Shown here: piece after piece, positions 1 through 18,500 of the stretch | Layout of the letters: every line of letters begins with the position of its first letter | Position numbering within the stretch: the stretch's first letter is position 1 | Origin: a virus | IMG/VR virus record: IMGVR_UViG_3300032360_000001 | Span: 1 to 64,000 of that record | Strand: one strand, 5' to 3' | Length of the DNA: 64,000 nucleotides | The notes under the pieces: model-generated | What the model saw: only the letters and a program-made list of their open reading frames with translations | Databases searched by the model: none | What the model was told of the DNA's origin: nothing | Position numbers and translations under genes: made by a program

Positions 1-625
1 GTAACTATCGGTCCCCGTAATGTAGACCGTTCCAGTTGCATAACTGGTGGTTCCTGTTACATAAGCCGTCCCGGTTACGTAGCTGATACCCGAGGCATAT
101 ACGGTCCCGGTTGCGTAGGTTATGCCTGTGGCATAAGTTGTGCCAGTTATATAACTGACCCCTGTGGTGTAGATATTTTCTCCGGTTATGTATTGGGTTC
201 CCGTGGCATAGGTCGTTCCCGTCGCGTAGGTCGTCCCCGTTGCGTATATTGCGCCGGTTGCGTAGGTCGTTCCAGTTACGTAACTGATCCCCGTGGTGTA
301 AATGTTTTCGCCTGTTATGTATTGGGTTCCCGTGGCGTAAGCGGTGCCACTTATGTATTGAGTCCCCGTGGTATAAGCTGTACCCGTTATGTGCTGGGTT
401 CCCGTGGCGTAAGTTATACCCGTCGCGTAGGTGGTCCCCGTTGTGTAGATTGTACCCGTGGCATAGATCGTGCCCGTCGCATAGGTTGTTCCTGTGGTAT
501 AGACCGTACCCGTTGCGTAAGTTGTTCCAGTTGCGTATGTGTTGCCTGTAGAGTAAGTGATTCCTGTTGCGTAAATGTTACCCGTTGCATAGACTATGCC
601 TGTAGAATAGGTCGTGCCCGTTATA
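1..625 (-). repeat. tandem 18-bp/hexapeptide repeat (xYxTGT) array
   Basis: On the minus strand the sequence reads as an almost unbroken series of six-residue units such as TYATGT, IYATGT, QYITGT and VYTTGT, over thirty in the window, continuing past the left edge. Tyr sits at position 2 and Thr-Gly at positions 4-5 of nearly every unit. A higher-order unit is superimposed: the phrase QYITGENIYTTG followed by (I/V)SY(V/I)TGTTYATG occurs at least twice, about 96 bp or a small multiple of 18 bp apart. Strict hexad periodicity suggests a beta-solenoid or beta-roll. Confidence 0.85.
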
Positions 626-3600
626 TATGCGGTACCTGTTATTCTGCTATTGTCTCCGGTTATCCTAACGTCATTCCCGCTTATGTAGTTTGTTCCCCCG
701 GTTATAAAAAATTGTTGTCCAGATACTGTATTTGCACCGTCTGTAATAAATACAGTCGTACCGGTCACATCTGTATATGTCGAATCGCTTATCGACACTG
801 TCCCAAAGTTGTCAAGGTCAATATTCGAACCTGTTATATACGTGGTGGAATTGGGCTGAGCAACCACGCTTACCAAGGCTCCAGAAACATAACTATTTCC
901 GACGGACAGCATGGAAAGAGTTGAGTCGTCTATGTTTGCGTTTCCGAAAGACTGTACGATACTATCTTTAAGCTCATTTATTTCGGTGTTTAAACTATTA
1001 ACATCAATCGTTCCCCCCGACACGTAGGTGTTACCATCCCCCGTGATGGTCACGGTACTGCCCGTTATGAAGCCGTTATTAATAGTTACAAATCCAGTTA
1101 CGAAATTCTGATCTCCAGATACGGTTATATCAGAACCGGTTATGAAAAGGTTCCCGCCGGTGTTATATACTTTGTAATTTGTGCCTGTTAAATTGACAAC
1201 GCCGCCGGATTGATTATATATGCCTATTCCGTCCCCCGTAATTCCCATGCTAGCTCCGCTCTGCATACCTGATACGCTAAGCGTCTCTACTCCGGTTATA
1301 AGAATAAGACCAGTTATATTATTAAATATACTAGTACCCCTGTAGATTCTTGGAGAGCCCCCTTCTAGGTTGAAATTTTCAATTACATTATCTGCAATTG
1401 TTTCCACTACGGCTCCCGCGGCCACGGTAATATTGTCAGAATCAGTTACGGTGACGGTGCTTCTGTCGATCTCTGCGCTTTCCGTAATCACGCTGCTCAC
1501 TGTGTTGCTATTTGCAGTTAATCCTGTTACAATTATTTGATTACCCGTAACTGACTGGATAACCCCCCCGGTTATATAATTTATGTCGCCGGTTACGCTC
1601 ATGTATGCACCATCCTCATTAATGAGCATATTGTATGTCGTATTTGTGCCCCCAGTAATACTTACATTACCGCTTTGGAGAAGCGCGCTTGTTGACCCGC
1701 CTGTTACATATAAATCACTTCCGCTTTGTACTGTTATGGTATTGACTCCTCCAGTAACCCCTATTCCTACCCCACTGAATATACTGGCTCCACTTTGCAC
1801 GAAAATGTGACTGCCAGTGACAAAGTTCGTTTGCCCGCTTAAGTTGACAGTTGACCCTGTTACAAACACAGACCCAGAGTTTGCCGTGATTGATCCCGTC
1901 GAATTCTGGAAACTTATATGCGCAGCGTTGGTCATTACCGCGCTTATGTTGCCTCCACTGGTTGCCATCAAGTTTCCTGATACCGTGGCGGTACCAGAAG
2001 TAAACAAATTTGTCCCTCCTGTTATGTTAATTGGTTGTTCTTTTGCAGAATAGAATACACCCGTGGAACTAGTCACGCTAATATGCTCTCCGCTAAATAC
2101 ACCCGTAGAATTTGATACGATCACTCTCCCCCCCGTTGCGTGAACGTTTTGTGATTGTCTTATATCAAAATTAATACCCGTAGCATCTATTCTTCCGGTG
2201 TGCAGGGTCAGCGTATTAGAATCGAAAAAGTTTCCACTAAAATAAAGAACACCAGTATCAAATTCTATATTTGTGGTGGAGCCTCTTCCGCTCACAATTA
2301 AACTGTTTATTTGGTGACCTGTTATGTTTACGGTCTCACTGTCGTTTGCAAAAATTGTTTCGGGGCCTTCTACGGTGACAAGCTGCGCGCTGTTTATTGA
2401 TCCTGCATTTCCGGTAATGTTTACCGTCGTTCCAGTAAGGCTTGACAAGGAGAAAGACGCGTTAGCGGTTATGTTCGCTGTCCCCGTGAGCGACGCATTG
2501 ACTGTCCCTCCTGTTACGTTTATGGTCGGACTTGTGCCGGTTATGAACGCCGTTGCTCCATCATTTATATTAAACGCGCTAGTGCTTAGAGTCGTACCGC
2601 TTATAGTCCCTAATATCGAAATGTCTGTTCCCGAAATATACTTTATTACCCCGTCGCCTGTATTGTAAATTACATTCGAGGTTCCACTTATACTTGTCGA
2701 TCCAGTGGGGTAAATAGTATTTACCGAATTGTAAATTTGTACACCATCCGTAGAGACGGTATGCGTACCACCAGTCATGGTAACATTTCCTGTTATCGTG
2801 TGGCCTCGACCCCCGGTTATATATACCCTTCCCTGACCGGTATTGGCATATATGATTATATCTTCTCCCCCAGTGATGTAACTCACTGTTCCCTCGTTTG
2901 CCACAAACACATTTGGTGCCAGCGAATAAGCCTTCACCTCAGAACCGGGCTCGTTGAATAGGTTCGTGGCGGTAGCTAAAGCTTGGTTATAAATGTGGGT
3001 TGAGACACCAGAGTACTCGTTTCTTACTGAAGATACAGAGCCGGTTATGCTTACATCGCTGTCGTATATATTATAGTTTTCTATCTGTAACTCGTCTACG
3101 CTACCCGTGAATTGGATCGCTGTCCCGGTTGACAAATCAGTCATGGTCAGATTCTGGCCAGATCCGGTCATGAACAGATTTATATTATACTGAATTGGTG
3201 TCGGGACTATAGTGTCAGTAAATTGCCGTATGAGTATCTCTTCCGCTACGTTTGGCGTTTGAGAGAAGACCACCCCCGTAAGATTGTCTATTGTGTAGTC
3301 TGTTGTCGGGGTTAGCGTCGATCCATCAAGAGAGACCCAAACGTTTTTAATGTTGTCTTCTGTTAATTCAAGGTGGAATGCATTTGTTACCCCATCTCCC
3401 ACGTGAGATGCGGACCCAGCTACATTTCCAACCCCTGTTCCTTCCCCGAACCGTAGAGTCAAGTCTCTTCTTACTCCAGAAAGGTCAAACTGTATATTGG
3501 TTCCTGTTATATTTTGAAAAAGATATTCTGCTGCAGGCAAGACCTCATCATCGTTAATGAAAAATTGAGCCCCCGATCCAGACAGGAACATTTTATTGTC

Positions 3601-6600
3601 CCTAATCAAAGCATAGTTTCCAGTATTTCCAAACTCAGATACCCGTAATGCCCCACCTGATATTTCCAAGTCTCTTTGCGGTACTACTATGGAAGTAAGC
3701 CTTCTGTAATTTTCATAAACATTATCTTGCGAAAGCGCTCCAGAATATAAGTGAACATTCTTTAGGAGCCCCTTGATGTGCTTTGTCGTGCTCGAGTTCG
3801 TTAATATATGAAAATCCTTTATGGGCACGCTTGGGTCTACGTAATCAATAGTTTTTGATCCTACGCTATCCGAGCTAACAAGAGCTCCATCTAGGTATAA
3901 GCTGTGAGTACTTCCATCCCAAGTTGTGTTAACAACGGAATACTGTCCGGTCTCTACTGGGTCGGTAAATAATGTAGATGATTTATCATCTGGATCTCCT
4001 CCCTCGTTAAATGTTACCTTTGAATAAAATCTCTTGTTTACGTCGAAGGTTATCTCATAGGATGCCGCTACCGTACCATGAGTATTGGGCACCTGTATAA
4101 GCGGGTCTCCAACCGTTCCTCCTAACTCTAGTGGCATAAACATGACCCCAAGAGTAAATGTTTCCGGCTTCAGGTCGTCTGTTATCGGAATTATTGCGTG
4201 CTGATCAGTTCCATCAAATTCAAGAGTGTTAGTAATTAATGCTGGAGAATTATAAAGTGTCGCGTCGTGGTTGTAGGTAGTGAGGTCTTGCCAAGTTCCG
4301 TCGCCGGTATAACTGTTTTTCGTTTCGGCGCTTAGGTGAAGAAGTTTATTCTCTAGTATTATTGCCTTGTGAAGCTTGTGCTCTATTGTGTCTTCTATGG
4401 GTACTGAGTCAACAAAGTATCTTCCAGACACGTTGACGTTATTTTCTACAACCGTATCCCCCAACACGGTTAATTTACCATATACGGTGGTGTCACCTTC
4501 GTATACTATGAAATCTCCAAGCTGACTTGACTCTGCGCCGATCTGATCGGTGGTTACTCTGACCTTAAAGTCCTGCGGGAACGTAACTAAACCTGAAGGA
4601 ACGAGTCCGGTTAAGTATGTTCCACCTGCGCCGTCATCAAGCTTGGCCCATATGGGTGAACTATATACATCACCATCTAAATTTGATATAAACTGAAAAT
4701 CAGAAGCGTGATGAAGCATTTCTCCATAGACATAAACTACCGTTTTTCCGACCACCCCCTCTTTCGGGTCGAAACTCGTCATTGTTGGAGACTTAATAGC
4801 ATTTAATAGGCCCAAAGAACCCATGTCCGCATTGGAATCTGACGAAAATGCTGATTGAGCAAATAGTGTTCCGCTTGCGTTTCCTGTGCCCGCTGGGATT
4901 GGAAAGTCAGAAGGAATCTGAAAATATAAATTATTGTATTCTTTGTTCGCTAAACTACTACTGGCGTCGTACTGGTCAAAATTCGATATTCCATACCCAC
5001 TGTCTCTCATAAACAAACCAGTTACGTTTGCCAATCCAGTGCCGTATAGCCTTATTTGTTGGCCGCGGTATCCACTTGTGGGTTCCGTAAATCCTACGGC
5101 TAATATTTCTGGCTCAATTATAATTGGAAGCCTGAATAATAAATCGTTTCCTAATCTTTGGTAAGTTTCCGTACCTGTCCATCCGCTATAAAAGCTTCCT
5201 TCTTTCTTGTGGATGTTTGTGGTTCCGGCTGCCCCACTCCAGTAGAATAAGTCCTCGGCGGTTACTTGTCCGTCTTGGTTTACATCAACCGTATCGTAGA
5301 ATCTTGGTGTCCCTGCTATGTTTTCTCTATATAATTGCCTAAGTGGCTTAGCAAAGCTCTGTTCGAAAATTGTTTGGCCACTTTTGTATACGGTGTCTTC
5401 GTCTAACCAGAAGAATAAAAATCCTGTTCCTACGAAATTGTCTGATATTGTTATTGGTATGTTATATAGGCCGGTTTTCTTCACGCCCTCGTCTCTTAGC
5501 CCGCTTGTATGTATGTGTCTTCTTATCTCTGCATTCCATATGTGCCCTAATGGATCGGAGTTATCTAGCAACTCGAATGGACTGTTCGGAATGAAGTAAT
5601 CCCCCAGATTAAACCAAGTGGCCTCGCTTCCGTCTTGAAAAAGCAGGTCTTGTCTCGTGCTGAATTTACTAAGAAACTCTATTTCTCTGCTTCCCGCATC
5701 TTCTTCTCCGGGGTGAGCTAACCCTGTTCCGCTAATTCCTATGGCATTAATGAAGGTTTTTTCGGCGTTTATTCCCGAGACGTATAGTGTTTGTCCTACT
5801 CTAATTGTCGTTGCTGAAATGCCAGATATAGCTGGGTACGCAGTTATATTTGTCGACAGGTCCTGATAGTCAGTTACAGTAAGGTCAATATCCGCCTTGT
5901 CTCGCCTTGACGTAAATAGCCTCGCGTCTTCGAGAAGGCAAGCTGGAATTTGAATCTCTACATACTCCGCGCCATCTGCCCCATACTTATATACATCATC
6001 TCCGTTTAATGGTTTTATGTAATCCCACGTTGGGTGCTTGTTTAGTCTGACTTCGGCAGCTGCATCAAAAACTCCTCCGCCTACTCCCCCTCCTTGAGTT
6101 TTCAAAAAGGATGGGCCTTCTTCCGCTGATGAAAATGACCCTACCCCACTAGAGATATTCGACATATCCATATGTCCACTTGAATACCCCTGAAACCAAT
6201 ATTTGGACTGATGAGTATCTGACCCACTTAGTATTATCGAATCCCCGTATATGCCTGTCCCGGGTTGAGCAAGATCCAGTGACACTACTTCGAAAACCTC
6301 TATTGGCAAAACGCTTTGCGCGTTTGTAAATTCGCCCATGAGCATGGGCTTGCCGTCTTCTGCGTCTATGGGTACTCTTATGTTTAATCCCGTCTTTGGA
6401 AAATCAAATCCCGTCGGCTCGAGTAAGGAATAGTAACTGTCCGGGGATACCGCCACTGTTGTCTGGGTATCATTTTTCCCCGTAAACCTTACCCCTGTAA
6501 CCAACTCCAAATTCGCACCAGATATTTTTAGGAAGTCGCTTCTTGCAACTAAGTCCGGATAATGACCACTGTAAAATATGCTATCTGGTATTGTCTGAAA

Positions 6601-8340
6601 CCTTTCCGTGGTGGTTACCGTTCCACCTGCTGCGGATACCCTTATTGGGGCTTCGAGTTCGCGATACAAATAATCATTAGTTAAGTAAGTGTGCTTCGGC
6701 GGTATTTCAAAACTTATTCCAGTTCCCCTTGACCCCAGAGTAGAGTAGGTCGTTACCGGTGTATTACCATGGTAAATTGATAGTAAGTTTACCAAGCTTG
6801 TTCCGCTTATTATCACTGTGCTTTCGTGTGCTCCAGAAGTAGGAGAAAATCCAGAAATTTCTGGTTCAGCAAAGAACCCGAAATACTGCCCCTCTGGACT
6901 TGTGGATTTTCCGACGCTGTTATCCACAACTATGGCGAAGTTGGAATCTTCAGACAAACCGGGAACGTACACGCTCATTACCTGAAGGCCAGTATCGGGA
7001 GTACCCTCTATTCCCGATATGCTTGCTGATATATTCCCAGAGAAGCCTCCGTGATCAACCAACCCACTAAAATATACAGCCGTTTCGGAATCATCAAAGA
7101 ATCCGCTACCAGTTATGTCTATTTTGTTTCCTTTAAAATCGCTTTTCGGTGAAAATCCTTTTACAAACGGGGGGTACTTTATGTATAAAGAGTCTTGTCC
7201 AGTTACAGATCCCCTTGGGGTTTCTATTACTATGTCGCAGTCTCTGTATCTTCCCGTTCCTGTTGGCAGGGTAAAGTCTATTTGGGTGTTGCTTTTGTTC
7301 GTTCCGTATGATATTACTAGCGAGTTAATTAAGTTTTCTTTATGATCTCCGTCTCTTTGCCCTGTTGGGTAGACATACAAGCCTGTAGTGTTGCCAAAAA
7401 ACTCTCCAGACATCGTTACGTAGTCGCCTCGATCACGTACTATGGAATGATCCCGATTCCCTCCATGGCTGCCCGCGGGTTTGCCAGTAACTGGAGTTAC
7501 TGACGATATAACGGGTGGCCCGGGAATCACATAAAAATCAATCCCGCTAGCATGATAACCCCCAAGTGAACTTCTTATTGACAGAAGACCTGAGTTCGCG
7601 CTTGAGGGTATCTTACCGGTTAGCCCTGTCGTTCCTACTAGCCCAAATCCGGTCTCTGCCCCATTGAAATCCACCAACCAACGGTTATAGTCTTGACTAG
7701 ACGAGTCGGTTGACGCCCTTACTAAAGCCCCTGTTACGAAGTTTTCTCCAGAAATTACGACATCATCAAATGGCTGCTCTCCCCCTCCGGGTCTATGCCT
7801 CTCCCCAGAAGAGGGTTGAACCCCCGTGATTATTACGTTTGTTTTCATCGTGGGGTACGTAGCACTCAGCCCGCTTTGCCCCACTATTTTCAAAGGTCCA
7901 TCTATATGCCCATAAGGGACAGTGAGTGGCAGAAAATTTATATCGACCATTCCGCTGTGCACGGTTGTCGCCGGCAATTGCCCTGTGCCAAAAAATGCCC
8001 CAGTAACCCCCGACAACGCTTGACCACTCACGCTCATTTGTGATCCGGGGACTGGCCTTTCCGTGGTTACCCCTAAAATTTGGGGCATTGGGACAAAATA
8101 TTCGCTTGCAGTTCCTGTTTGCTTCCTAAGTGTAGAGCCTACCTTTGGGTTCCCCCATTGAGCGGCTGATGGAATTGTGGCAATTAATAGCTCTTCATTA
8201 ACCCAATCGAAATTAGCAAAAACATAGTCTATCCCGCCGATGGTATCCGCATTAGGTTTATAGGGGAAAGAGACGCTGTCGATTTGGACAAACCCCTGCC
8301 CTTCGATCCTAACTGTCTGGCCTATTATTCCTGATGACAT
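1..8340 (-). CDS. giant tail-associated adhesin-like protein, partial (at least 2780 aa)
   Basis: The frame opens with ATG at 8338-8340 and stays free of stops to the left edge, so the gene is truncated by the window. Residues 1 to about 1290 hold roughly eleven IPT/TIG-like immunoglobulin folds, recognised by repeated units of the type SPTSG-x-xG-xx-VxIxGxxF followed by a GTG or FSG turn. An EF-hand loop DVNQDGQVTAEDLF lies near residue 1020. A laminin-G/ConA-like domain (LEFDGTDQH, SLYLDG, VHLYSGALS) spans about 1330-1545. From about 1700 the chain becomes a Thr/Ser/Gly-rich repeat with recurring ITGGT and VSG turns, suggesting a beta-solenoid, and it ends in YATGTT hexapeptides. The start lies 2 bp after the stop of an upstream tube-like gene that itself ends in a TIG domain. 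A surface fibre or tail decoration role is inferred; the IPT/TIG and LamG assignments rest on motif reading. Confidence 0.85.
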   Translation of the reverse strand, partial: MSSGIIGQTVRIEGQGFVQIDSVSFPYKPNADTIGGIDYVFANFDWVNEELLIATIPSAAQWGNPKVGSTLRKQTGTASEYFVPMPQILGVTTERPVPGSQMSVSGQALSGVTGAFFGTGQLPATTVHSGMVDINFLPLTVPYGHIDGPLKIVGQSGLSATYPTMKTNVIITGVQPSSGERHRPGGGEQPFDDVVISGENFVTGALVRASTDSSSQDYNRWLVDFNGAETGFGLVGTTGLTGKIPSSANSGLLSIRSSLGGYHASGIDFYVIPGPPVISSVTPVTGKPAGSHGGNRDHSIVRDRGDYVTMSGEFFGNTTGLYVYPTGQRDGDHKENLINSLVISYGTNKSNTQIDFTLPTGTGRYRDCDIVIETPRGSVTGQDSLYIKYPPFVKGFSPKSDFKGNKIDITGSGFFDDSETAVYFSGLVDHGGFSGNISASISGIEGTPDTGLQVMSVYVPGLSEDSNFAIVVDNSVGKSTSPEGQYFGFFAEPEISGFSPTSGAHESTVIISGTSLVNLLSIYHGNTPVTTYSTLGSRGTGISFEIPPKHTYLTNDYLYRELEAPIRVSAAGGTVTTTERFQTIPDSIFYSGHYPDLVARSDFLKISGANLELVTGVRFTGKNDTQTTVAVSPDSYYSLLEPTGFDFPKTGLNIRVPIDAEDGKPMLMGEFTNAQSVLPIEVFEVVSLDLAQPGTGIYGDSIILSGSDTHQSKYWFQGYSSGHMDMSNISSGVGSFSSAEEGPSFLKTQGGGVGGGVFDAAAEVRLNKHPTWDYIKPLNGDDVYKYGADGAEYVEIQIPACLLEDARLFTSRRDKADIDLTVTDYQDLSTNITAYPAISGISATTIRVGQTLYVSGINAEKTFINAIGISGTGLAHPGEEDAGSREIEFLSKFSTRQDLLFQDGSEATWFNLGDYFIPNSPFELLDNSDPLGHIWNAEIRRHIHTSGLRDEGVKKTGLYNIPITISDNFVGTGFLFFWLDEDTVYKSGQTIFEQSFAKPLRQLYRENIAGTPRFYDTVDVNQDGQVTAEDLFYWSGAAGTTNIHKKEGSFYSGWTGTETYQRLGNDLLFRLPIIIEPEILAVGFTEPTSGYRGQQIRLYGTGLANVTGLFMRDSGYGISNFDQYDASSSLANKEYNNLYFQIPSDFPIPAGTGNASGTLFAQSAFSSDSNADMGSLGLLNAIKSPTMTSFDPKEGVVGKTVVYVYGEMLHHASDFQFISNLDGDVYSSPIWAKLDDGAGGTYLTGLVPSGLVTFPQDFKVRVTTDQIGAESSQLGDFIVYEGDTTVYGKLTVLGDTVVENNVNVSGRYFVDSVPIEDTIEHKLHKAIILENKLLHLSAETKNSYTGDGTWQDLTTYNHDATLYNSPALITNTLEFDGTDQHAIIPITDDLKPETFTLGVMFMPLELGGTVGDPLIQVPNTHGTVAASYEITFDVNKRFYSKVTFNEGGDPDDKSSTLFTDPVETGQYSVVNTTWDGSTHSLYLDGALVSSDSVGSKTIDYVDPSVPIKDFHILTNSSTTKHIKGLLKNVHLYSGALSQDNVYENYRRLTSIVVPQRDLEISGGALRVSEFGNTGNYALIRDNKMFLSGSGAQFFINDDEVLPAAEYLFQNITGTNIQFDLSGVRRDLTLRFGEGTGVGNVAGSASHVGDGVTNAFHLELTEDNIKNVWVSLDGSTLTPTTDYTIDNLTGVVFSQTPNVAEEILIRQFTDTIVPTPIQYNINLFMTGSGQNLTMTDLSTGTAIQFTGSVDELQIENYNIYDSDVSITGSVSSVRNEYSGVSTHIYNQALATATNLFNEPGSEVKAYSLAPNVFVANEGTVSYITGGEDIIIYANTGQGRVYITGGRGHTITGNVTMTGGTHTVSTDGVQIYNSVNTIYPTGSTSISGTSNVIYNTGDGVIKYISGTDISILGTISGTTLSTSAFNINDGATAFITGTSPTINVTGGTVNASLTGTANITANASFSLSSLTGTTVNITGNAGSINSAQLVTVEGPETIFANDSETVNITGHQINSLIVSGRGSTTNIEFDTGVLYFSGNFFDSNTLTLHTGRIDATGINFDIRQSQNVHATGGRVIVSNSTGVFSGEHISVTSSTGVFYSAKEQPINITGGTNLFTSGTATVSGNLMATSGGNISAVMTNAAHISFQNSTGSITANSGSVFVTGSTVNLSGQTNFVTGSHIFVQSGASIFSGVGIGVTGGVNTITVQSGSDLYVTGGSTSALLQSGNVSITGGTNTTYNMLINEDGAYMSVTGDINYITGGVIQSVTGNQIIVTGLTANSNTVSSVITESAEIDRSTVTVTDSDNITVAAGAVVETIADNVIENFNLEGGSPRIYRGTSIFNNITGLILITGVETLSVSGMQSGASMGITGDGIGIYNQSGGVVNLTGTNYKVYNTGGNLFITGSDITVSGDQNFVTGFVTINNGFITGSTVTITGDGNTYVSGGTIDVNSLNTEINELKDSIVQSFGNANIDDSTLSMLSVGNSYVSGALVSVVAQPNSTTYITGSNIDLDNFGTVSISDSTYTDVTGTTVFITDGANTVSGQQFFITGGTNYISGNDVRITGDNSRITGTAYITGTTYSTGIVYATGNIYATGITYSTGNTYATGTTYATGTVYTTGTTYATGTIYATGTIYTTGTTYATGITYATGTQHITGTAYTTGTQYISGTAYATGTQYITGENIYTTGISYVTGTTYATGAIYATGTTYATGTTYATGTQYITGENIYTTGVSYITGTTYATGITYATGTVYASGISYVTGTAYVTGTTSYATGTVYITGTDSY
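626..3200 (-). repeat. Thr/Gly-rich beta-solenoid-like repeat region of the giant protein
   Basis: About 850 residues with irregular but constant recurrence of short strands ending in ITGGT, VTGxT, VSGxx, NITG or ITVQSG. Asn, Thr, Ser and Ile/Val dominate and long hydrophobic helices are absent. This looks like a parallel beta-helix with variable loop length, grading into the strict hexapeptide array on its C-terminal side. Fold assignment is an inference. Confidence 0.55.
3700..4360 (-). other. LamG/ConA-like lectin domain inside the giant protein
   Basis: About 220 residues contain LHLSAET, LEFDGTDQHAII, TWDGSTHSLYLDGALV and KNVHLYSGALSQDNVYENY. The order of strands and the closing phrase (structure on the surface followed by 'N-Y') match the laminin-G/concanavalin-A-like superfamily seen in phage fibres. 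Sugar binding is inferred from the fold only. Confidence 0.65.
4460..8340 (-). repeat. array of about eleven IPT/TIG-like domains in the giant protein
   Basis: Successive units share a start such as ISGFSPTSG, KGFSPKSD, SSVTPVTG, GFTEPTSG or TSFDPKEG, followed about ten residues later by VxISGxxF/L and a short GVxFxG strand. These are the hallmarks of IPT/TIG immunoglobulin-like folds. Spacing is roughly 90-130 residues. Divergence between copies is high, so they are old duplications rather than recent DNA repeats. Exact borders were not computed. Confidence 0.7.
5235..5300 (-). other. EF-hand/dockerin-like calcium loop inside the giant protein
   Basis: Translation of the minus strand gives DTVDVNQDGQVTAEDLFYW. 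It has the D-x-N-x-D-G-x-V-x-x-x-D spacing of a dockerin or EF-hand calcium loop. Only one such loop was seen, whereas dockerins carry two, so a structural calcium site between TIG units is more likely than a cohesin-binding module. Confidence 0.6.
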
Positions 8341-8342
8341 GC

Positions 8343-9452
8343 TTACCTTATTCTAGTTATTTGTATAGTAGAAGATAAAGACTTAAATGCCATAGTTGAT
8401 GCATTAGCGTTGTCTCCATTCTTTAAATATATTGTCCCGTCGGCTCCAGCTGTTTCCTCTGGAACTGTGAATCTTATTAAATTGTCGTTAACATATTGAC
8501 ACTCAAACAACTCAAAACTACCAATCCATACATCTGGATAGCTTAAAAAATTTATTCCACTTATGTCTATCGTTTCTCCCGGTGCTCCACCCGTGGGTCC
8601 CCACCCTTCTCCACCATTATCTGGGTGGTCTACTTCTTTCCCTGTTATTTTAGCTAAAAAGCTTGGAGCGTCTTGAGTTACCCGTATTGAGTTTTTTGCA
8701 AAACTTTGATTATCTGCTTGTATATTTTTTACATTTGTAAAGCCCCTAGCCTCGTAGTACACCTGTCTTGACAATGTTTCTCTGTCTCTTAACTCTATCC
8801 CAAGTATCGTGTTTTCCCCTTGCATCCTCATAGCCCCACTTAAGTTATCGATGGTTACGGCTGTTTCTAATTTTTTTGGACCGAAAGAGATGCTGTCTGG
8901 CTTTATGTTATAGAGTCCGGTTCCTGTTACTAAATTATAGACGGGTTTTACGTCCATTGAATAACTGAATGAAGCGTCTACTACCGAAGAGTTGGCGTCT
9001 GTTAGGCCTGTCCCGTTAATCGTCGCGTCTATGAAATTCAGCATGGTTTTGTCTTGACTCGGCTTTTCTGTACTCGGCGTAAACGAGCCTGACCCAAGTT
9101 GGCCTTCAAAATCAAAAAACGCTATCTCCACACTTGCCCGCGCCATGGTGTTGGGTGAGGCGCTTATTCTGTAGCTTGTGAGATGTCCGCTAGGAAAGCT
9201 CATCTGCCCAAAATTTCCTTCTATTCCTATATTTTCTTTATATATTAAATCATGAAAATAATCCTGCCCGGTTAGAACGTATGAAAAAGCCATGGTTCCA
9301 TTTACCGCTTCTGACGCTTGGTAAGAATGAGAGTATTTTTTGCTTGCGAAATACCGCGCTTCTAAGTTGGAATTTATATCAAATGAAAGATTAGCAGCAA
9401 CGAAAGATCGATTGTTTAAAAGTACGGTACAATTTTTATATGTATAAAACAT
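8343..9452 (-). CDS. tail-tube-like protein with C-terminal IPT/TIG domain
   Basis: A 369-residue protein. Residues 1-270 follow the two-half pattern of the major tail tube protein at 44194-45501: a first half with a SFDIN strand, a FSYVLTG phrase and a GHLTSYRISASP strand, then a second half with FSYSMDVKPVYNL. Residues about 285-365 are an added Ig-like IPT/TIG domain (GGAPGETIDISGINF, IRFTVPEETAG). The start ATG overlaps the upstream stop by one base (TAATG), so it is translationally coupled to the next tube-like gene. It probably forms part of the tail shaft or a tail-end ring that displays the extra domain. No membrane segment or signal peptide is visible. Confidence 0.65.
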   Translation of the reverse strand: MFYTYKNCTVLLNNRSFVAANLSFDINSNLEARYFASKKYSHSYQASEAVNGTMAFSYVLTGQDYFHDLIYKENIGIEGNFGQMSFPSGHLTSYRISASPNTMARASVEIAFFDFEGQLGSGSFTPSTEKPSQDKTMLNFIDATINGTGLTDANSSVVDASFSYSMDVKPVYNLVTGTGLYNIKPDSISFGPKKLETAVTIDNLSGAMRMQGENTILGIELRDRETLSRQVYYEARGFTNVKNIQADNQSFAKNSIRVTQDAPSFLAKITGKEVDHPDNGGEGWGPTGGAPGETIDISGINFLSYPDVWIGSFELFECQYVNDNLIRFTVPEETAGADGTIYLKNGDNANASTMAFKSLSSTIQITRIR

Positions 9453-10369
9453 TAATGGTACCTCCTAAGCGTGTACGAGGCTTTTGCGAAATCGTTTGTG
9501 TCTACAGATATGTCCGCGCTTTCTATTTTCATTCCTGAAAAATCAAATTCCATAAAATGCGAAGAAGTGTCGCATAAACCACTTAATGGTTCAATTCTTA
9601 CCCTAGGTGGAGACTCGGCGTCGTATTCATTAAAATATGATCCGTCCTCTAGCTGTCCACTAAATAAAGCCCATCCGCTTTCTCCGTAAAAAGTAACCGG
9701 ATGAGAGTCTGGCCCTTGACCGTCTACATTTATAGAGCAGGTATCTTTAACCACACTCGCGGTCTCCTCTGCGGTTAGAAGTTGTACTTGTTTCGGGTAT
9801 TTTTGCCCCAACACGTAAACTGGATTTATTACCCCCCTAAAATCATAGGAAAAATCATAGACTGGAGCCAATATTGTCCCATCGCTGGCGAGAAGGGACG
9901 TTGTCCAAGAGTGAGCCAAGCCGCTAAAGCTTTCCGCGTACCCTTTGTCAACTATACCTGATCGCTTGATTACCGTACCCGTGGGTGGCACAAACCCCAC
10001 GTATGAAGCGTTAGCTCTGACCAACTCGTTTGATGACACACTTACATTGTAGCTATCTAAGAAGTAGACTCCAGTTACCCCAGCCACGCCTATTACATTC
10101 GGCGGGATATCGTGATAATTTGGGTTTACCGTGTTGTGAACCAAGCTCAAGTAATCTAAAACATTTGCGTAAACCGGATCTTTTTCAACCTCTAAGTAGT
10201 AAGAAAAGCGCACAGCAGCTGCATATTGTCCGTCTGGATCGGATCCTTCCGCGAGGTTTTTGCCCATAGCGCGGACAGCGACAATGGCATTAGAAGTAGA
10301 CAGCGATACCTGCTCGGCCATTACCCCTGTACCGTTTACCACTACATCGCAATTATTGAAAAAAATCAT
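9452..10369 (-). CDS. tail-tube-like protein, paralogue 2
   Basis: A 305-residue protein. It starts with IFFNNCDVVVNG, and contains VRFSYYLEVEKDPVYANVL, an Ig-like strand series around SYNVSVSSNELVRANASYVGF and a second-half phrase YDFSYDFRGVINPVYVLG. That last phrase closely parallels the FSYSMDVKPVYNLV stretch of the downstream neighbour. This supports a shared tube-protein ancestry and a two-fold internal layout. A GTGTAATT motif lies 27 nt upstream of its start. It probably acts as a tail shaft or distal-tail ring component; specialised function is unknown. Confidence 0.6.
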   Translation of the reverse strand: MIFFNNCDVVVNGTGVMAEQVSLSTSNAIVAVRAMGKNLAEGSDPDGQYAAAVRFSYYLEVEKDPVYANVLDYLSLVHNTVNPNYHDIPPNVIGVAGVTGVYFLDSYNVSVSSNELVRANASYVGFVPPTGTVIKRSGIVDKGYAESFSGLAHSWTTSLLASDGTILAPVYDFSYDFRGVINPVYVLGQKYPKQVQLLTAEETASVVKDTCSINVDGQGPDSHPVTFYGESGWALFSGQLEDGSYFNEYDAESPPRVRIEPLSGLCDTSSHFMEFDFSGMKIESADISVDTNDFAKASYTLRRYH

Positions 10370-10396
10370 TTACCAAAAACCTTGTGCCTCTTTATC

Positions 10397-10404
10397 AATT
10401 ACAC
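10397..10404 (-). promoter_or_regulatory. GTGTAATT late-promoter-like octamer
   Basis: The minus strand reads GTGTAATTGATAAAG, 27 nt before the ATG of the 305-residue tube-like gene, inside a 41-bp intergenic gap. It matches the octamer seen before other tail and neck genes in this window. Promoter function is inferred from position and recurrence. Confidence 0.45.
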
Positions 10405-10410
10405 TGGAAA

Positions 10411-11364
10411 TTAGTTAGTAATTGTAACTAATTGTGGAGTATTGAGGTTTCCGGTCTCGGTCAGAAGGTTCTCTATGTATACCTTATATCTGGCTTGTAT
10501 TTTTAAGTTATTATTAACGTCTACTGAGTAATTTTCACCTACTAAAGTAGCTCCCGTGAAATTAAATTGCGTTATTACTTGATAGGTTTGGTAGTCTTTT
10601 ATTCTAACATCAAAATTCTTAAGTTTTGCTTTGCATGGATACCCCCTGAATGTGCTCCCCGAGTACCCCACGTCAGAGCCATTGACCTCAATTGTGAAAT
10701 CTGCTGTTGCCACCACGGGATAGTCTATTTCCACGGAAAATGGACTCCTTCTTCCTATTTTATAATAATCTTTCCTTGGTATATCTAGCCCCAATGTGAA
10801 ATTATTTACAATATTGGCGTCAAAATCATCCATTGTTATCTCAACGCTTGTCGGGGCACCAATTCTGTATCCCCCATCACCCGGATTATCTGCGAATCCT
10901 GTGGGCGCGGTTTGGGCAACGGTTGAACCAGTTATATACCTCAATTCTTGCACTGCTTGGGCTGGTAGCGACCCAGATGGAATTTTTCCCATATCCCCCA
11001 CTACCCTAAAGGTTCCGTTTACTTCAGGTAATGCGTCGACGGCGCATGATAGGGTGTATCTTGTCAAATACCCCGAATAAAAACTATAAAACCTAGTGGA
11101 ATCTTTCCTATCGTCGGTTATAAACCCATTGAACCCCCCGCTATGTATACATTTCACAAGGGGATCAGTATCCACAACCAGCGTATTGATTGAAAAATCC
11201 CCTATTTGTGGCCCTTGCGGAACTACGATGGAATTTGATTGGCCTATGAATTCAAGCGGCGATTCTGGTATTTGCCAATTATACGATAAGGACTGCGCTC
11301 CATGTACCTGCCCAGACCCTATAAAAACCTCCTGTTTCTCTCTATTGACTATCTTAAATGCCAT
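10411..11364 (-). CDS. tail-tube-like protein, paralogue 1
   Basis: A 317-residue protein. It aligns by eye with the major tail tube protein in order and spacing: a SLSYNWQIPESPLEF strand matches ANYSFNIPRTDINQF; SGYLTRYTLSCAVDALP matches GNGFITSYTTECSVGNFP; LGLDIPRKDYYKIGRRSPFSVEIDYP matches ISLDMAREPINRLGSRFAFSREITFP; and LKNFDVRIKD matches LKNCKVNSQ. It is the first gene of a minus-strand group facing the tail-tip genes across a 66-bp divergent gap, with GTGTAATA 7 nt upstream of its ATG. It may be a tail-end or tip-proximal tube ring; major or minor status cannot be read from sequence. Confidence 0.7.
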   Translation of the reverse strand: MAFKIVNREKQEVFIGSGQVHGAQSLSYNWQIPESPLEFIGQSNSIVVPQGPQIGDFSINTLVVDTDPLVKCIHSGGFNGFITDDRKDSTRFYSFYSGYLTRYTLSCAVDALPEVNGTFRVVGDMGKIPSGSLPAQAVQELRYITGSTVAQTAPTGFADNPGDGGYRIGAPTSVEITMDDFDANIVNNFTLGLDIPRKDYYKIGRRSPFSVEIDYPVVATADFTIEVNGSDVGYSGSTFRGYPCKAKLKNFDVRIKDYQTYQVITQFNFTGATLVGENYSVDVNNNLKIQARYKVYIENLLTETGNLNTPQLVTITN

Positions 11365-11430: not shown

Positions 11431-11976
11431 ATGGGTACTAACATTTATAATATAGAAGAGTTCAATGCTGGAACAGAATATAAGAAAAACGACATAGTCT
11501 GGTACGACCTTACGGTAAGTTCTAAAACACGCAAATACTATTGGTATGCCTCTGTTCCCGGGGTGCTTAGCGCACCGTCGCTTTCAAACCACCAGTGGGC
11601 GGGAGTAAAATTTGACAGCGTCAAAACCACAACCAACAAGCCGCATTTTTGGTGGAAGCCTTCCTATAATTTTACCATAGAAAATAAACCGAGAGTTATC
11701 CGTCATTCCTATGGAGACGGCTACGAACAAAGAGTTATCGATGGCATAGAAAGCGTTCTGTTAAGAGCCACGATTAACTTCGAGACTAGAGACGCGGCTG
11801 AAGCTAAAGCAATTACCCATTTTTTTCACATGAGAAAAGCTCAGGAATCTTTCCTGTGCATGCTCCCCGCACCGTATAATATTGATAAATTGTATGTCGC
11901 CAGAGATTGGGGCGTGACTTTCAATTTCTATGACAATTATACCATACGAGCAACCTTCGAAGAAGTAACAAACTAA
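11431..11976 (+). CDS. minor tail protein M homologue with N-terminal CBM5/12-like module
   Basis: A 181-residue protein. Residues about 70-181 match the lambda gpM family: KPRVIRHSYGDGYEQRVIDGI, then a FETRDAAEAKAITHFF helix and a WGVTFNFYDNYTIRATFEEV end. The family forms the ring that joins tube to tip. Residues 1-60 (GTEYKKNDIVWYD, KYYWYAS, HQWAG) look like a small chitin-binding (CBM5/12) type module absent from lambda gpM. The ATG has a good upstream AGGAAAAAGG. It is first in the plus-strand tail-tip operon and 9 bp precede the L-like gene. Confidence 0.8.
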   Translation: MGTNIYNIEEFNAGTEYKKNDIVWYDLTVSSKTRKYYWYASVPGVLSAPSLSNHQWAGVKFDSVKTTTNKPHFWWKPSYNFTIENKPRVIRHSYGDGYEQRVIDGIESVLLRATINFETRDAAEAKAITHFFHMRKAQESFLCMLPAPYNIDKLYVARDWGVTFNFYDNYTIRATFEEVTN

Positions 11977-11985
11977 CACCATAAC

Positions 11986-13269
11986 ATGTCAAGTGATAAA
12001 AAATTAAGCGATTTCTCTAAGGTCAGAATAGATAAAACAAAACATTCTGCGAAAAAAATTATTAGCGAGATGGGTAGGGTTGCCCCGTCTTCTGTCGTGA
12101 CTCTATACGAAATAGATTTAGAAGATTTGCTGATAGACGAAAACATGCCCTATCTCGAAACTACTTTAGCCGGAGAAGCCGTTTTCAGATTCCACAACAA
12201 CCTAAAGCTTACTAAACAAAAATTATACTGGAAGGGCGAAGAGTACCATCCCTTACCTGTGTACGTGGAGGGGTTCGACAGCAATACGAGGGGCTCCGCA
12301 CCCACCCCTAGAATGAGTATGGTGGCGAATGAAAAAGATGACAACCAATCGATGTTCAGGTCCTTTAAGCTAATGGTAAGACAGCTAGATGATCTAATTG
12401 GCGCTAAGGTAACAAGAGTAAGGACCTTTGCTAAATACCTCGACGTGAAAAACTTTTACGATATTCAACAAGGAGGAGGAAGGGTTACCTTGGGCGACGA
12501 CACTTTAATACCCGAAGGGTTTACGCCAGACCCATTAGCGGAATTCCCTAGGGAAATATTTTTCATAAACAGAAAAAGCGTAGAGAACAAAAATGGATTA
12601 GAATTCGAGTTGGGTTCTTTTATTGATTTTGAAAGTCTAAAGCTCCCAACCAGACTGGTTATTTCAAGGTATTGTCAATTTCAGTATAGGGGAGAGGGTT
12701 GCATTTATGAATACCAGAGCAACGGAGACGTCATGACCGACGACCAACTTATCTCGGCCTTTGGCACGGATAGTACTAACGAACTTAAATTTCCTTGCAA
12801 AGCTCCCCCTATAGCAGACGAAAATGACGAGCTTTTCACAGACGAACTCGACGTAAACTACAACCCACAACAACAGGCAACAGCGTATGATCCTGCTAGC
12901 AGCTATACTATAGGGCAAAATATTTATTTAACTAAAAATGATATAAAATATTATTTTATAGCGAAAGGAACCGTGCCCGCCGCTGAAGGGGGAACTTTAT
13001 CGACAATTCCACCCAACAACAATTACTGGCTGGAAGACAAGTGTTCCAAAACAATAAAAGGGTGCAAATTAAGATGGTCAGACGAGTACAAAAAGCACAC
13101 AGATATACGTGTTTTCGGCGCAGCCACAGATACAATGATTGGCACCTCAACTACCTGCGGCGTCTACTCAATGAGTAACCCATGCGGTGGCTGCGGCACA
13201 AATACGCATGCCGGTTGCTTACCATTTGGGGGTTTTCCTGCCGTCGAAAAACTAGCTGGTGGAGCTTAA
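11986..13269 (+). CDS. minor tail protein L homologue (iron-sulfur type), enlarged
   Basis: A 427-residue protein, roughly twice the usual length of lambda gpL. It has the family order: TLYEIDLEDL near residue 40, the SMVANE/DLIGAKVTRVRTF core, then RYCQFQYRGEGCIYE, CSKTIKGCKLRW and the conserved GCLPFGGFPAVEKL end. In lambda gpL four cysteines bind a [4Fe-4S] cluster; the CxxxxxxxxC and CxxxxxxC pairs here are the likely equivalents. Between the two pairs lies an insert of about 120 residues that contains a second CBM5/12-like stretch (YDPASSYTIGQNIYL, KYYFIAKG, NNYWLED). It is expected to sit at the tail tip next to M. Confidence 0.85.
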   Translation: MSSDKKLSDFSKVRIDKTKHSAKKIISEMGRVAPSSVVTLYEIDLEDLLIDENMPYLETTLAGEAVFRFHNNLKLTKQKLYWKGEEYHPLPVYVEGFDSNTRGSAPTPRMSMVANEKDDNQSMFRSFKLMVRQLDDLIGAKVTRVRTFAKYLDVKNFYDIQQGGGRVTLGDDTLIPEGFTPDPLAEFPREIFFINRKSVENKNGLEFELGSFIDFESLKLPTRLVISRYCQFQYRGEGCIYEYQSNGDVMTDDQLISAFGTDSTNELKFPCKAPPIADENDELFTDELDVNYNPQQQATAYDPASSYTIGQNIYLTKNDIKYYFIAKGTVPAAEGGTLSTIPPNNNYWLEDKCSKTIKGCKLRWSDEYKKHTDIRVFGAATDTMIGTSTTCGVYSMSNPCGGCGTNTHAGCLPFGGFPAVEKLAGGA

Positions 13270-14006
13270 TGATGAAAGACTACATTAAAAAACATATAAG
13301 AGACCACGCTCTAGAAGAGTCACCCTACGAGTGCTGTGGAATTTTATACCAAGAGGAGGACTCCCTTCGGCTTAAAGCTTTAAGATGTAGAAATATAGCC
13401 GAAAACAAACGCATGATGTTTTCAATTGATCCAAGCGACTACTTGAAAGCCGCGAATTTTGGCGAAATAATTTCCTTTTATCACTCACACATAAACAGTA
13501 GTGAATTTTCTGATTACGACAAAATACAAAGCGAACACCACGAAATAAAATTCATAATGTATAGCCTTAAGAGTCAAAAGTTCAAAGAATACGAACCAAA
13601 GGGGTGTGAGTCTTTTTACATAGGTAGAGACTTTTGTTTGGGAAAAAATGATTGTTATACTTTAGGGCGTGATTACTACAAAGAAGAATTAAATATTGAT
13701 TTGCCAGAAAAAGAAAGGAACTTCGAGTATATCACATCAAACCCAAGTTGGTTTACCGATGGCTATTCCGAGGAAGGGTTTAAAACTGTCCTAGAGGGAG
13801 AAGTTACCGACGGATCTATACTAAAAAAACACGACGCAATCCTAATGAAATGCTATGGAAAGAGGAACCCCAGTCATGGCGCTATTTATGTTGGTAATGA
13901 TTTAATTTTACACCACCAAATAAATTGCTACTCCAGAATCGAAGAGTACAATAAAGAATTTAAAAAAAGAACCACACACGTACTTAGACACGAAAGTCAA
14001 TTTTGA
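13269..14006 (+). CDS. tail assembly protein K homologue, copy 1 (JAMM plus NlpC/P60)
   Basis: The start is taken as the ATG at 13269, which overlaps the L stop as TAATG; a longer frame from 13182 would run through the end of the L gene. The 245-residue product begins with a JAB/MPN domain: ECCGILY, then SFYHSHINSSEFSDYD carrying His-x-His and the Ser-x-x-Asp of the metal site, with six rather than the usual seven residues between. The second half is NlpC/P60-like: NDCYTLGRDYY provides the Cys nucleophile, SHGAIYVGNDLILHH the His region. In lambda, K processes or assembles the tip, and its P60 domain cleaves peptidoglycan-type bonds. It overlaps the next gene by 4 bp. Confidence 0.85.
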   Translation: MMKDYIKKHIRDHALEESPYECCGILYQEEDSLRLKALRCRNIAENKRMMFSIDPSDYLKAANFGEIISFYHSHINSSEFSDYDKIQSEHHEIKFIMYSLKSQKFKEYEPKGCESFYIGRDFCLGKNDCYTLGRDYYKEELNIDLPEKERNFEYITSNPSWFTDGYSEEGFKTVLEGEVTDGSILKKHDAILMKCYGKRNPSHGAIYVGNDLILHHQINCYSRIEEYNKEFKKRTTHVLRHESQF

Positions 14007-14857
14007 AAATAACAAAAAAAGTCAAAGAAAGCATCAAGAAACATTCCTTGGAAGAATCTCCAAACGAATGCTGTGGTATTGTTTTGAAAAATAATGGTCG
14101 TTTTATTACCAAAAAATGTAAAAATATATCAGAAAACCCCACCTATCATTGCGTCGTCTCCGAAGAAGATTTAAAAAATAAAATTGGGGATTCAGATCTT
14201 TTTGCTATTTACCATTCTCATTTTGATGAAAAAGAGCTATCTTGGGCTGATAAAAACGAAGGCGAAAGATTAAAAACAAACATTATTCTTTATTGCGTCA
14301 AGGATGATTGTTTCGATTCTCACGAGCCAGATGGTTTTGTCGCTCCTTTTGTGGGCAGAGAATGGACTTCGGGTATTACCACATGTATAGATTTGTTGGA
14401 GGACTACTATCGAAAACTCTTTAACATAGGACTTACTGGACACGAAAAATTTTTACTGCCCATAATTGAGGAAGCTCGTAGCGGATCATTATCACGGCTG
14501 GAGGGATCATGCGCCATGTCCTTGTTTTTTAAATCCGCAGAAGATAGCGAGGAAGGAAGACGCCTAAAAAAAATGATTGAAAAGTATAAGAAAATCCCTG
14601 CATATTTAAATTTTCTCAAACACAACGAATTTTATGAAGTTAAAGCTCTCGAAAAACATGACGTAATTTTAACTAAAACTTGGAACGAAAAATGGAACAA
14701 AAAATACAACATATACCATGGAATACACTCTATGGTCTATCTTGGCGACGGCAAGGTATTGCATCACCCATGGAAACAGACCTCAAGAATAGAAAAGCTC
14801 AATACTAATCATAAACTAGCTATAACAAACATTTTAAGACATGAAAAAGCCCGTTGA
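14003..14857 (+). CDS. tail assembly protein K homologue, copy 2 (JAMM plus NlpC/P60)
   Basis: It starts with TTG inside a TTGA overlap with the stop of copy 1; no in-frame ATG lies early enough. The 284-residue product repeats the layout of copy 1: NECCGIVL, then AIYHSHFDEKELSWAD with the same HSH and SxxD, then TTCIDLLEDYY (Cys) and YHGIHSMVYLGDGKVLHHP (His). Between the two NlpC/P60 motifs it has about 50 additional residues (around 150-210), rich in Lys and Glu. Both sets of catalytic residues survive, so neither copy appears to be a dead duplicate. The last 17 bp overlap the I-like gene. Confidence 0.85.
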   Translation: MKITKKVKESIKKHSLEESPNECCGIVLKNNGRFITKKCKNISENPTYHCVVSEEDLKNKIGDSDLFAIYHSHFDEKELSWADKNEGERLKTNIILYCVKDDCFDSHEPDGFVAPFVGREWTSGITTCIDLLEDYYRKLFNIGLTGHEKFLLPIIEEARSGSLSRLEGSCAMSLFFKSAEDSEEGRRLKKMIEKYKKIPAYLNFLKHNEFYEVKALEKHDVILTKTWNEKWNKKYNIYHGIHSMVYLGDGKVLHHPWKQTSRIEKLNTNHKLAITNILRHEKAR

Positions 14858-15533
14858 AATTAAACTCCACGGAAAACTGGGGAGAAAAACAGGAATGAAA
14901 ACTTGGAACTTGCACGTGCAAAGCGTCTCGGAAGCGCTACATGCAATTAATAAACTGTCAGACGGCAAGCTATTCAGACAACTCGGTAGAGAGCAGAAGA
15001 AAAATCAAAAATTTAAAATATTAATTAATGATGAGCCATGGAAATCAGACTCAGATGTTCGACTTGATCGCATATATGACGACGAAGCCGAATCACGAAA
15101 GCAACTAGAACTTATAAATAATTCCGAGCTTAAGATTAAAAACCCCAAGCTAAAAAAAATAGATATAGTTCCCGTGGTTGAGGGGGCGGATGAAGTTTTT
15201 ACTATAATTTTTGCTATTATAATTATTATCGTAGGCTTTATGGTTATAGCAGCAGGCCATGCTGAGATTGGAGCGCAGATAATAATGGCTGGAATTGGCC
15301 TTTTGGCCGCGGGTATAGCAGCATTACTTATGGAACCCCCCGAAATGGACGAACTGAAGAATTTCGAGGGGGCCACATCAGCTTCCTACCTATTTAATGG
15401 TCCAGTAAACATCGTAAAAGAAGGTGGTCCCGTACCCATTTGCTACGGCGAACTTTTATGCGGTAGTCAGACACTTGCCGCTTATTATGATATATACGAC
15501 GTAGAAGCAGCGTCAAGCTCAATAAGTAACTAA
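14841..15533 (+). CDS. tail assembly protein I homologue
   Basis: A 230-residue protein. Residues 1-110 form a ubiquitin-like/ThiS-like N-terminal domain (IKLHGKLGRKTG...WNLHVQSVSEALHAI, FKILINDEPW), as in lambda gpI. It is followed by strongly hydrophobic segments at about 118-140 (FTIIFAIIIIIVGFMVIAAG) and 145-165 and ends with the family phrase GPVPICYGELLCGSQ. In lambda, I helps assemble or load J and is not found in the mature virion. It sits directly between K and J in lambda order and ends 4 bp before J. Confidence 0.85.
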   Translation: MKKPVEIKLHGKLGRKTGMKTWNLHVQSVSEALHAINKLSDGKLFRQLGREQKKNQKFKILINDEPWKSDSDVRLDRIYDDEAESRKQLELINNSELKIKNPKLKKIDIVPVVEGADEVFTIIFAIIIIIVGFMVIAAGHAEIGAQIIMAGIGLLAAGIAALLMEPPEMDELKNFEGATSASYLFNGPVNIVKEGGPVPICYGELLCGSQTLAAYYDIYDVEAASSSISN

Positions 15534-15537
15534 TCAA

Positions 15538-18500
15538 ATGAAAAGAAAGCCCAAAATCAAGAAGACGAGATACCCTATCACGCTTGGGCCTAATGGAGAA
15601 ATTCAATTCTTTAAGGGGGGCGGAGGAGGGTCTCAACCAAATCCCAGAGATGTTGTTCACGAGCCGGAAGGAGTAGACACTCCTGAATTCCCTCGTCCAT
15701 CTGATGACGATTCTCAGGGTAAACCCCCGGGTGCGGTATCTCTTTCTACAGTAGAAGTCCTAGACTGCTTAGGCGAAGGCCCCATTGATGGGCTCACTTC
15801 GGGTTATTATCACAAGTCTGGTTACGTAGGAGAAACCGGCTACAGGTTGGTAAAATTTAAACCATACGTGTCTGGTACCGCTGCTCAGATTCAATCCGGG
15901 TGGGCCAGATCCGTATATTATAATGGCATACAGGTCCTATCACAAGCTGGCTATAGGAATTTTCAAAATGTTGATGTGACCCATTCTAAAGGTGAGCCCG
16001 CGGGTGAAAATTTAATATTAGATTCTAATTCCGAGGACACCTTGCAGATTCAAAGGTCTTTAGGGGAAAGACTACGTGGTCCGGAGCTTAAATATAAAGA
16101 TTCAAATTACTCCGCCGACTCCATGATTCTTAAACCCGGGGAGGACAGTCTCGGCAGAAGCGAGGGCCTCCCAAAATACTACAACATAACAAATAAAAGA
16201 TGCACAGCTTTCGTAATGGTTGTACGGGTGTCAATGCTCTCAGAGACCCTAATGACCGGGTCCACAGAGAAAGGCACTAAGACTGGAAAGGGTGACGTAA
16301 AGCAAACCTCCGTCACTTACCGCATAGACCACAAGCCATATTATTCTGACGACACAAAAAACACGGACTTCTTTCCGAGGAATAGCGCAGGCGACGTAGT
16401 GCAACAACCTCTTACTAACGTCACATCAAAAACAATTCGCGGTAAGATTACAGATGGGTATGCGCAGTCAACAAAAATAACTCCCAACCCCACTTCCTTT
16501 GGATCCCAGTACGGGTATTCCGACGTAACGGAAGATCCTGATTTTATAGGCTGGCGTATTGCCGTATATAGGGAGACCTTTGATTCTTTTAGGGGATCTT
16601 TAAGGAATCAAACCTTCGTCGATTCTCTCACTGAAATATACGAAGAAAAATTCTGCTACCCAACCTCCGCGTTTATAAGACACAAATTCAGAGCGGATAC
16701 ATTCGGGCAAGTTCCAGCAAGAACCCACCAGATAAGAGGGCTTCGAGTAAAGGTTCCGAACAACTACAACCCCATTATGCGCACATATGGGGGAATCCTA
16801 GGCGGTACCGCCGCTGGGCTTCCACCGGTGAACGAGGGAGACCCCCTGCTTGACACAACAACCACGGTTTGGGATGGAGACTGGAAGCGTCACGCTGCAG
16901 GCACTGAAGCAGGCAAGCTGAAAAAAGAATGGACAGATAACCCTGCTTGGATTTACTACGACATCATAACAAATAAAAGATACGGTTTAGGAAAATACAT
17001 CGGAGAAGATCGAGTCGATAAATGGTCGATGTTTAAAATCGCACAATATTGTGACGAGCTTGTCCCCAATGGCTTCACAGCGCAAGATTATGATGACGAA
17101 CCCGGTAAAGACTTTGGTGAAGCTAGATTTACAGCAAATATTTACATCGCCAACCAAGAAGACGCTTTTTCCGTAATCAATAATATTGCTAGCGTATTTA
17201 GGGGGCTTACTTTTTATAGCGCCGGTAAGCTTCAAGCAACGCATGATGCGCCCAAGGAACCGACGTACCTATTTAACAATTCAAATGTCATGGATGGCGA
17301 CTTTTTGTACAGTAGTTCCGCTAAGAAAGCCAGACATTCAGTTTGTCTAGTGAGATACAACGACGAAGCAAACAAGTACAAACCCAGCATAGAATATGTT
17401 GAGGACGTCGATTCTATCAAAAAATACGGAATAAGAGTCAAAGATGTAACCGCCTTTGGTACGACCTCAAAAACTCAAGCGCAAAGATGGGGACAGTGGA
17501 CCCTAGCAACTGAAAGGCTCGAAACAGAGACCTGCAACTTTACAGCAGGAATAGAAGGAGCTTATCTTCAGGCAGGTGATATTATTGCTACGTCAGACGA
17601 AAATAGGGGGACATATCAAGACGTAGCTACAAGGAGAAGAGGAGGAAGAGTCCTTAATTTTCAGATTTCTTCTGGTCGTAACATGGACGGTCAACCGAAC
17701 TGGACAGGGAGAGCAGTTCTTGATAGCTCGATATCTGGCTGGATCGATGGTGGTTCTTATTATTCAATACCCGAGGTTGGCCAAAAGGGTGAATTACATT
17801 TTAGCATCGTAACCCCCCCAGCGTATGGTGATCCTTTAACAAGCGATCTTAGTACAAGCGACTTGGCGAATCTTTATAGCAGAAAATCCGCCGTTCAGAA
17901 GCTTAGTTTCAGAAAAGCAGATGCTGGCGTTGGAACATCAGCCAACTTCGTGGGAGAAAGTGGCTGGGCCACCAATGACTTAATGGCCGATGGATCATTA
18001 TCAATTTCTGACTACGATAGAACATCCATTGAAAACCACACTATAATACATTTCACGGGGCTATATCATAACGGAACAAACGTACTCAACGACAAAGACT
18101 ACAACATAACAGGGTTCACGGGGTTACTTTACGACAACAACGGGAACGAACAATTAGCTCCTGACGGTTCCAACTATTCTGGGTTCGTAGAGAACCCGCC
18201 GGACAATTTTCTCTGGGCGGTGGAATACACAGGCGCTTTACTTCAGGGGCACGGCGGTAAACCAGATCGAGAGCTCTGGAAAATCATCGGGGTAGAAGAA
18301 AAAAATAATTTCAAATACGCAGTCCAATGCATTTCGCATGACCAGTCTAAGTTCGATTTTGTTGACAGACAATATGAGCCCCTCGTGGGGGAATCCATAG
18401 GCACCCCAAATGCCCCTACGTTCTCGTCTAATCCATTTACCATTACTCAGCTAGGTAGCCTAACAGCAAAAAAGGTTACGGTTAGATGGAACAAGCCAAG

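Follow-up and report, generated by a model that had tools for sequence, protein, structure and literature searches.

Three adjacent minus-strand genes of a phage (A, B and C) encode relatives of the protein presumed to build its tail tube (T). Their products are probably duplicates of the shaft protein that have turned into specialised rings of the tail tip, C anchoring a giant fibre (D), with the shaft itself built from T. The window, i.e. the whole stretch of DNA analysed, comprises bases 1-64000 of a linear IMG/VR virus record of 89,345 bases, whose source is an uncultured marine phage, probably a very long-tailed one. The tail region in the window is of siphovirus type, with a tape measure gene, T and a plus-strand tip block (11431-20598). 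The three reading frames lie exactly where the first-pass annotation had drawn them, adjacent and on the minus strand, as is T:

1-8340, minus strand: D, giant fibre of at least 2780 aa, extending past the window start (translation; continues C collinearly in relatives)
8343-9452, minus strand: C, tube paralogue (about residues 1-270) plus TIG domain (286-353), 369 aa (profiles; Pfam TIG; fusion with D in relatives)
9452-10369, minus strand: B, tube paralogue with a predicted duplicated tube fold, 305 aa (AlphaFold2 model; profile links to A and C)
10411-11364, minus strand: A, tube paralogue, 317 aa (profile links to T and B; gpM-like neighbour)
11431-11976, plus strand: M, lambda gpM-like minor tail protein (Pfam Phage_min_tail, E 2.3e-15; phrog_14, E 1.8e-17)
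11986-13269, plus strand: L, lambda gpL-like minor tail protein (tblastn match to 'minor tail protein L' of lambdoid phages)
13182-15533, plus strand: K1, K2 and I, tail-tip genes of the M-L-K-I-J block (order conserved in relatives; names K and I by position only)
15538-20598, plus strand: J, lambda gpJ-like tail hub (Pfam Phage-tail_3, E 5.8e-27; FNIII-A_GpJ, E 1.9e-4)
22482-41771, minus strand: tape measure protein, 6429 aa (PHROGs tape measure families, best E 2.8e-50)
44194-45501, minus strand: T, presumed canonical tail tube protein with a predicted duplicated tube fold, 435 aa (AlphaFold2 model; upstream of the tape measure gene)

The A-B-C-D run begins 66 bases from the gpM-like gene, on the opposite strand. 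Its distance of 30 kb from T, to which the first-pass annotation had drawn attention, is readily understood, since A-D are grouped with the tip genes M-L-K-I-J. At 1.5 A per residue, the tape measure predicts a tail about 0.96 um long, roughly the length of that of P74-26, the longest tail known.

A, B, C and T form one family, in which A is joined to T by sequence, and B and C via A and the fold. Among single sequences, A-T is the sole pair supported against T (BLAST, E 2e-5); B-T and C-T are at chance in BLASTP. For profile-profile comparison, relatives of each protein were collected from viral contigs and aligned separately, and the profiles were domain-trimmed. With the relatives included, T-A scores 106 (E 2e-14) and B-C 107 (E 4e-15), followed by A-B, nearly full length, with 63.5 (E 2e-8) and A-C with 58.9 (E 1.2e-7). 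Null controls from the same alignments reach at most 26.9 (column-shuffled) and 23.4 (reversed), and no control profile from 29 other proteins encoded by the virus scores above 21 against any tube profile. T-C is weak and near chance (29.7); T-B is at chance (17), a sequence link undetectable even with profiles. B and C are therefore linked to T by sequence through A alone. The paralogy with the tube protein proposed in the first-pass annotation is confirmed in this form, directly for A and via A for B and C, together with the fold of B and T. T, A, B and C have no match in PHROGs or Pfam except for the TIG domain of C, and A and T have none among phage records (tblastn). A profile search of PDB sequences returns nothing relevant, with no detectable sequence resemblance to p140 or to a tube protein of solved structure, and the relationship of M to the tube family is at chance in profile comparison.

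B and T were modelled with AlphaFold2, B from an alignment of nine B sequences alone (mean pLDDT 71, pTM 0.75) and T from 28 T and T2 sequences only (mean pLDDT 64, pTM 0.72), both models being of moderate confidence. The two input alignments share no sequence, and the top PDB neighbours common to both models are two-domain tube proteins. The B model matches the T5 tube over its full length (VIA Z 15.2, rmsd 4.9, 262 aligned), the T5 tail-tip chain 7qg9_G of 298 residues (Z 14.8), SH-Ab15497 (Z 14.7) and P74-26 (Z 14.7); next come Haloferax tailed virus 1 (Z 10.8) and single-domain tubes (Z 6.8 and below). Chain 7qg9_G, the non-pb6 chain with a tube fold in the T5 tip, we take to be p140. The T model matches the P74-26 tube, likewise full length (VIA Z 19.7, rmsd 4.8, 306 aligned), T5 pb6 (Z 19.6) and SH-Ab15497 (Z 18.6), and Z falls to 10.3 and 8.6 beyond the two-domain group. 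The models show for B and T a predicted duplicated tube fold of the T5 pb6/P74-26 type, i.e. two tandem tube domains; the two-half layout that had been read into all of these proteins stands for these two. By profile homology A, bracketed by T and B, and C, homologous to B, would share the duplicated fold.

The family has a fifth member in the same virus, beyond the 64-kb window. T2 (73308-74618 of the record, L044:9308-10618, minus strand, 436 aa) is related to T over its full length (profile E 9e-40) and directly follows the portal gene, whose end it overlaps. The earlier count of four tube proteins is thus too low, while all four counted are indeed relatives. T2 also stands directly after the portal gene in G001-G004, G023-G025, G028 and G029, one gene from it in G015, and at a distance of three genes in G014, where it is a tandem pair. 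Altogether, 12 of 13 portal-bearing viral records have T2 within three genes downstream of the portal gene, and only G006 is without it there. From the gene position, a role in the neck or as first ring may be guessed. The T2 homologue of G025 (L081:4889-6793) reaches 634 aa through an insertion between the two halves. T2 also adjoins a gene for an FtsZ/TubZ-like GTPase, recognised by the motif GAGGGTGGGT (L044:7935-9119, G000 71935-73119), whose product has a family of unknown function as its sole PHROG match; an FtsZ/TubZ-like gene lies beside T2 in L070 too.

Across the relatives, A is consistently associated with the tip gene M, whereas the presence of B and C varies and goes with that of the fibre D. 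Wherever the locus was read, A adjoins the gpM-like gene or lies one gene away from it. An A-B-C-D run divergent from M-L-K-I-J-fib is found in L038, L039, L040 (where the locus ends just past the start of B), L043 and L053-L058. L069, L071 and L072 possess A without B or C, still beside M and with unrelated genes next to it. Many relatives have ordinary T and tape measure genes but neither B nor C; where present, B and C are found together and, if the locus reaches far enough, are followed by a long fibre-like or unassigned gene. The exception is G041 (L078/L080), a contig binned with a Neomarinimicrobiota MAG, in which a single strand carries the order tape measure - A - B/C - M - L - K - I - J. 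The slot of A and B/C in G041, from the tape measure gene to M, is where genes for tip rings would be expected. The gpM-like protein of G041 (L080:7528-8496) has two M domains in one chain, which would make the M ring trimeric instead of hexameric. L061 has A upstream of M and L on one strand, and its opposite strand carries D-C-B together with a second gpM-like gene. Such a second gene beside B, on the B-C-D strand (L061:2719-3318 and L060:814-1413), looks as if the fibre module had a gpM ring of its own. The A homologue of L061 (3432-5114) is 560 aa long, its approximately 240 extra C-terminal residues being without a Pfam match.

The IPT/TIG domain that had been noticed in one of the three proteins is present in C, as Pfam TIG at residues 286-353 (E 1.6e-5). 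A-D all run in one direction and the start codon of C lies inside the TAATG that closes B, which suggests a single operon. In L038 and L039, C and D form a single reading frame, with collinear matches to C 1-368 and then to D from residue 2-3; in L043, the reading frame of C runs on through the first 280 residues of D. The C/D break thus shifts along the chain among relatives, and these reading frames are good evidence that C would be the root of the fibre. No Pfam match of D reached 0.01, and the domain names within it are given by eye: TIG-like repeats, a LamG-like region and long YATGT-type repeats, besides a dockerin-like EF-hand calcium-binding motif at about residues 1018-1031 (DVNQDGQVTAEDL).

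Known tails offer several points of comparison. T would be the equivalent of the shaft proteins of T5 (pb6) and P74-26, with the same duplicated fold; the tube protein of P74-26 is two-domain and forms trimeric rings (PMC10034513). The present phage differs from both in having several paralogues per virus and no PHROGs or Pfam tube match. In T5, the last pb6 trimer is followed by a p140 trimer, the Dit hexamer and the hub (PMC10038345), and the premise of the first-pass annotation that a siphovirus tail uses one tube protein is therefore too strict. p140 has the pb6 fold and no Ig domain, and sits inside the side-fibre collar; p132, the collar protein, adopts an Ig fold rather than a tube fold, and the fibres attach via this outer collar around p140 (PMC10038345). 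DT57C has the same arrangement, with the protein named TTMP (PMC10713586). The proteins described here are like p140 and TTMP in their two-domain tube fold, as paralogues of the shaft protein and in being encoded with the tip genes. They are unlike p140 in that there are three tandem paralogues instead of one, and in the TIG (Ig-like) domain of C, which is continuous with a giant fibre in relatives; A and B have no extra Pfam domain, and the B model has poorly predicted loops. The tip block, unlike that of T5, is lambda-like (M-L-K-I-J). Sequence similarity to p140 is not detectable, but p140 and pb6 themselves share only 9% identity (PMC10038345), which keeps this negative result from being decisive. 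A would work like p140 rather than be p140: no testable defining feature excludes a p140-like role, and the position in the particle is read from the genes alone. SPP1 Dit is a weak Foldseek match to B (E 5e-3), and it is a hexamer with a single tube domain, whereas B has two. T4, a contractile-tail phage, is not known to have a fibre joined to its gp54. That protein likewise forms one more tube-like ring, adjoining the baseplate (PMC10038345). The hubs gpJ of lambda and pb3 of T5 combine tube-type and fibre domains in one chain (pb3: PMC10038345), like the fused C-D, but this phage has its own gpJ-like hub, from which C-D is separate.

A, B and C would have descended by duplication from a two-domain tail tube protein. 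By C3 symmetry, three copies of each would make a pseudo-hexameric ring. The A ring would cap the last T ring and join it to the gpM ring, as the p140 ring of T5 joins pb6 to Dit, and at that site B and C would supply one or two more rings or a collar carrying the fibre. C would project its TIG domain and, covalently or tightly coupled, the TIG/repeat fibre D of several thousand residues, which would probe the cell surface; the shaft itself would be T. Ring formation, stoichiometry, the order at the tip, the attachment of D and any signalling role are points that we infer by analogy.

The tip-ring reading draws on the place of A beside M and on the order tape measure - A - B/C - M in G041, and of the three possibilities raised in the first-pass annotation, i.e. 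a tube of mixed composition, differently decorated segments and extra rings at the tip, it is the last that fits best; the first two find no support. The main rival to it would leave only A as a ring of the channel and make B and C tube-fold adaptors, or a collar outside the tube, on which D docks. Such an arrangement agrees with the fibre chains of L038 and L039, whose N-terminal part is C, and with the variable presence of B and C, which go with D; it also agrees with the attachment of T5 fibres through the outer collar around p140 (PMC10038345). B, however, keeps a full two-domain tube fold in its model, the T5 collar protein p132 does not have a tube fold (PMC10038345), and in the core tip operon of G041 the B/C protein, with no fibre gene adjacent, is encoded between A and M. 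We regard B and C as adaptors as rather unlikely on this evidence.

A shaft of mixed composition, with A, B and C forming segments of it or rings scattered along it, would be in keeping with their sharing the fold and family of T, but their genes sit with the tip genes and not with T, many relatives with ordinary T and tape measure genes lack B and C, and C bears a giant fibre in relatives, which together make such a shaft very improbable. That the whole resemblance reflects chance, or a shared beta-rich composition, is scarcely credible. The single-sequence comparisons of B or C with T would allow it, but the two checks that had been named for the paralogy, predicted folds and alignment scores, both speak against it: the independent B and T models match the tube fold full length and share the same top PDB neighbours, and profile scores of 59-107 stand against a null maximum of 27 and a control maximum of 21.

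With A, B and C as tip rings, the phage would have found the same solution as T5 within a family of uncultured phages, mostly marine, that looks unrelated and has lambda-type tip genes. The expansion to three copies, one of which would be an N-terminal fibre anchor, resembles what is known from T5 and extends it, and phages may in this way convert a protein of the shaft into a device for attachment. The positions of A beside M and of T2 beside the portal gene serve as annotation handles for a tube family that goes unrecognised by PHROGs and Pfam. We hold only tentatively, as a distinct possibility short of an expectation, that the virion contains five tube-fold proteins of one duplicated family, with T2 in the neck, T forming the shaft, A, B and C following one another as rings of the tip, and a fibre of several thousand residues continuous with one ring. 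If so, the fibre would be rooted in a tube ring itself, which could transmit contact with a receptor straight to the DNA channel.
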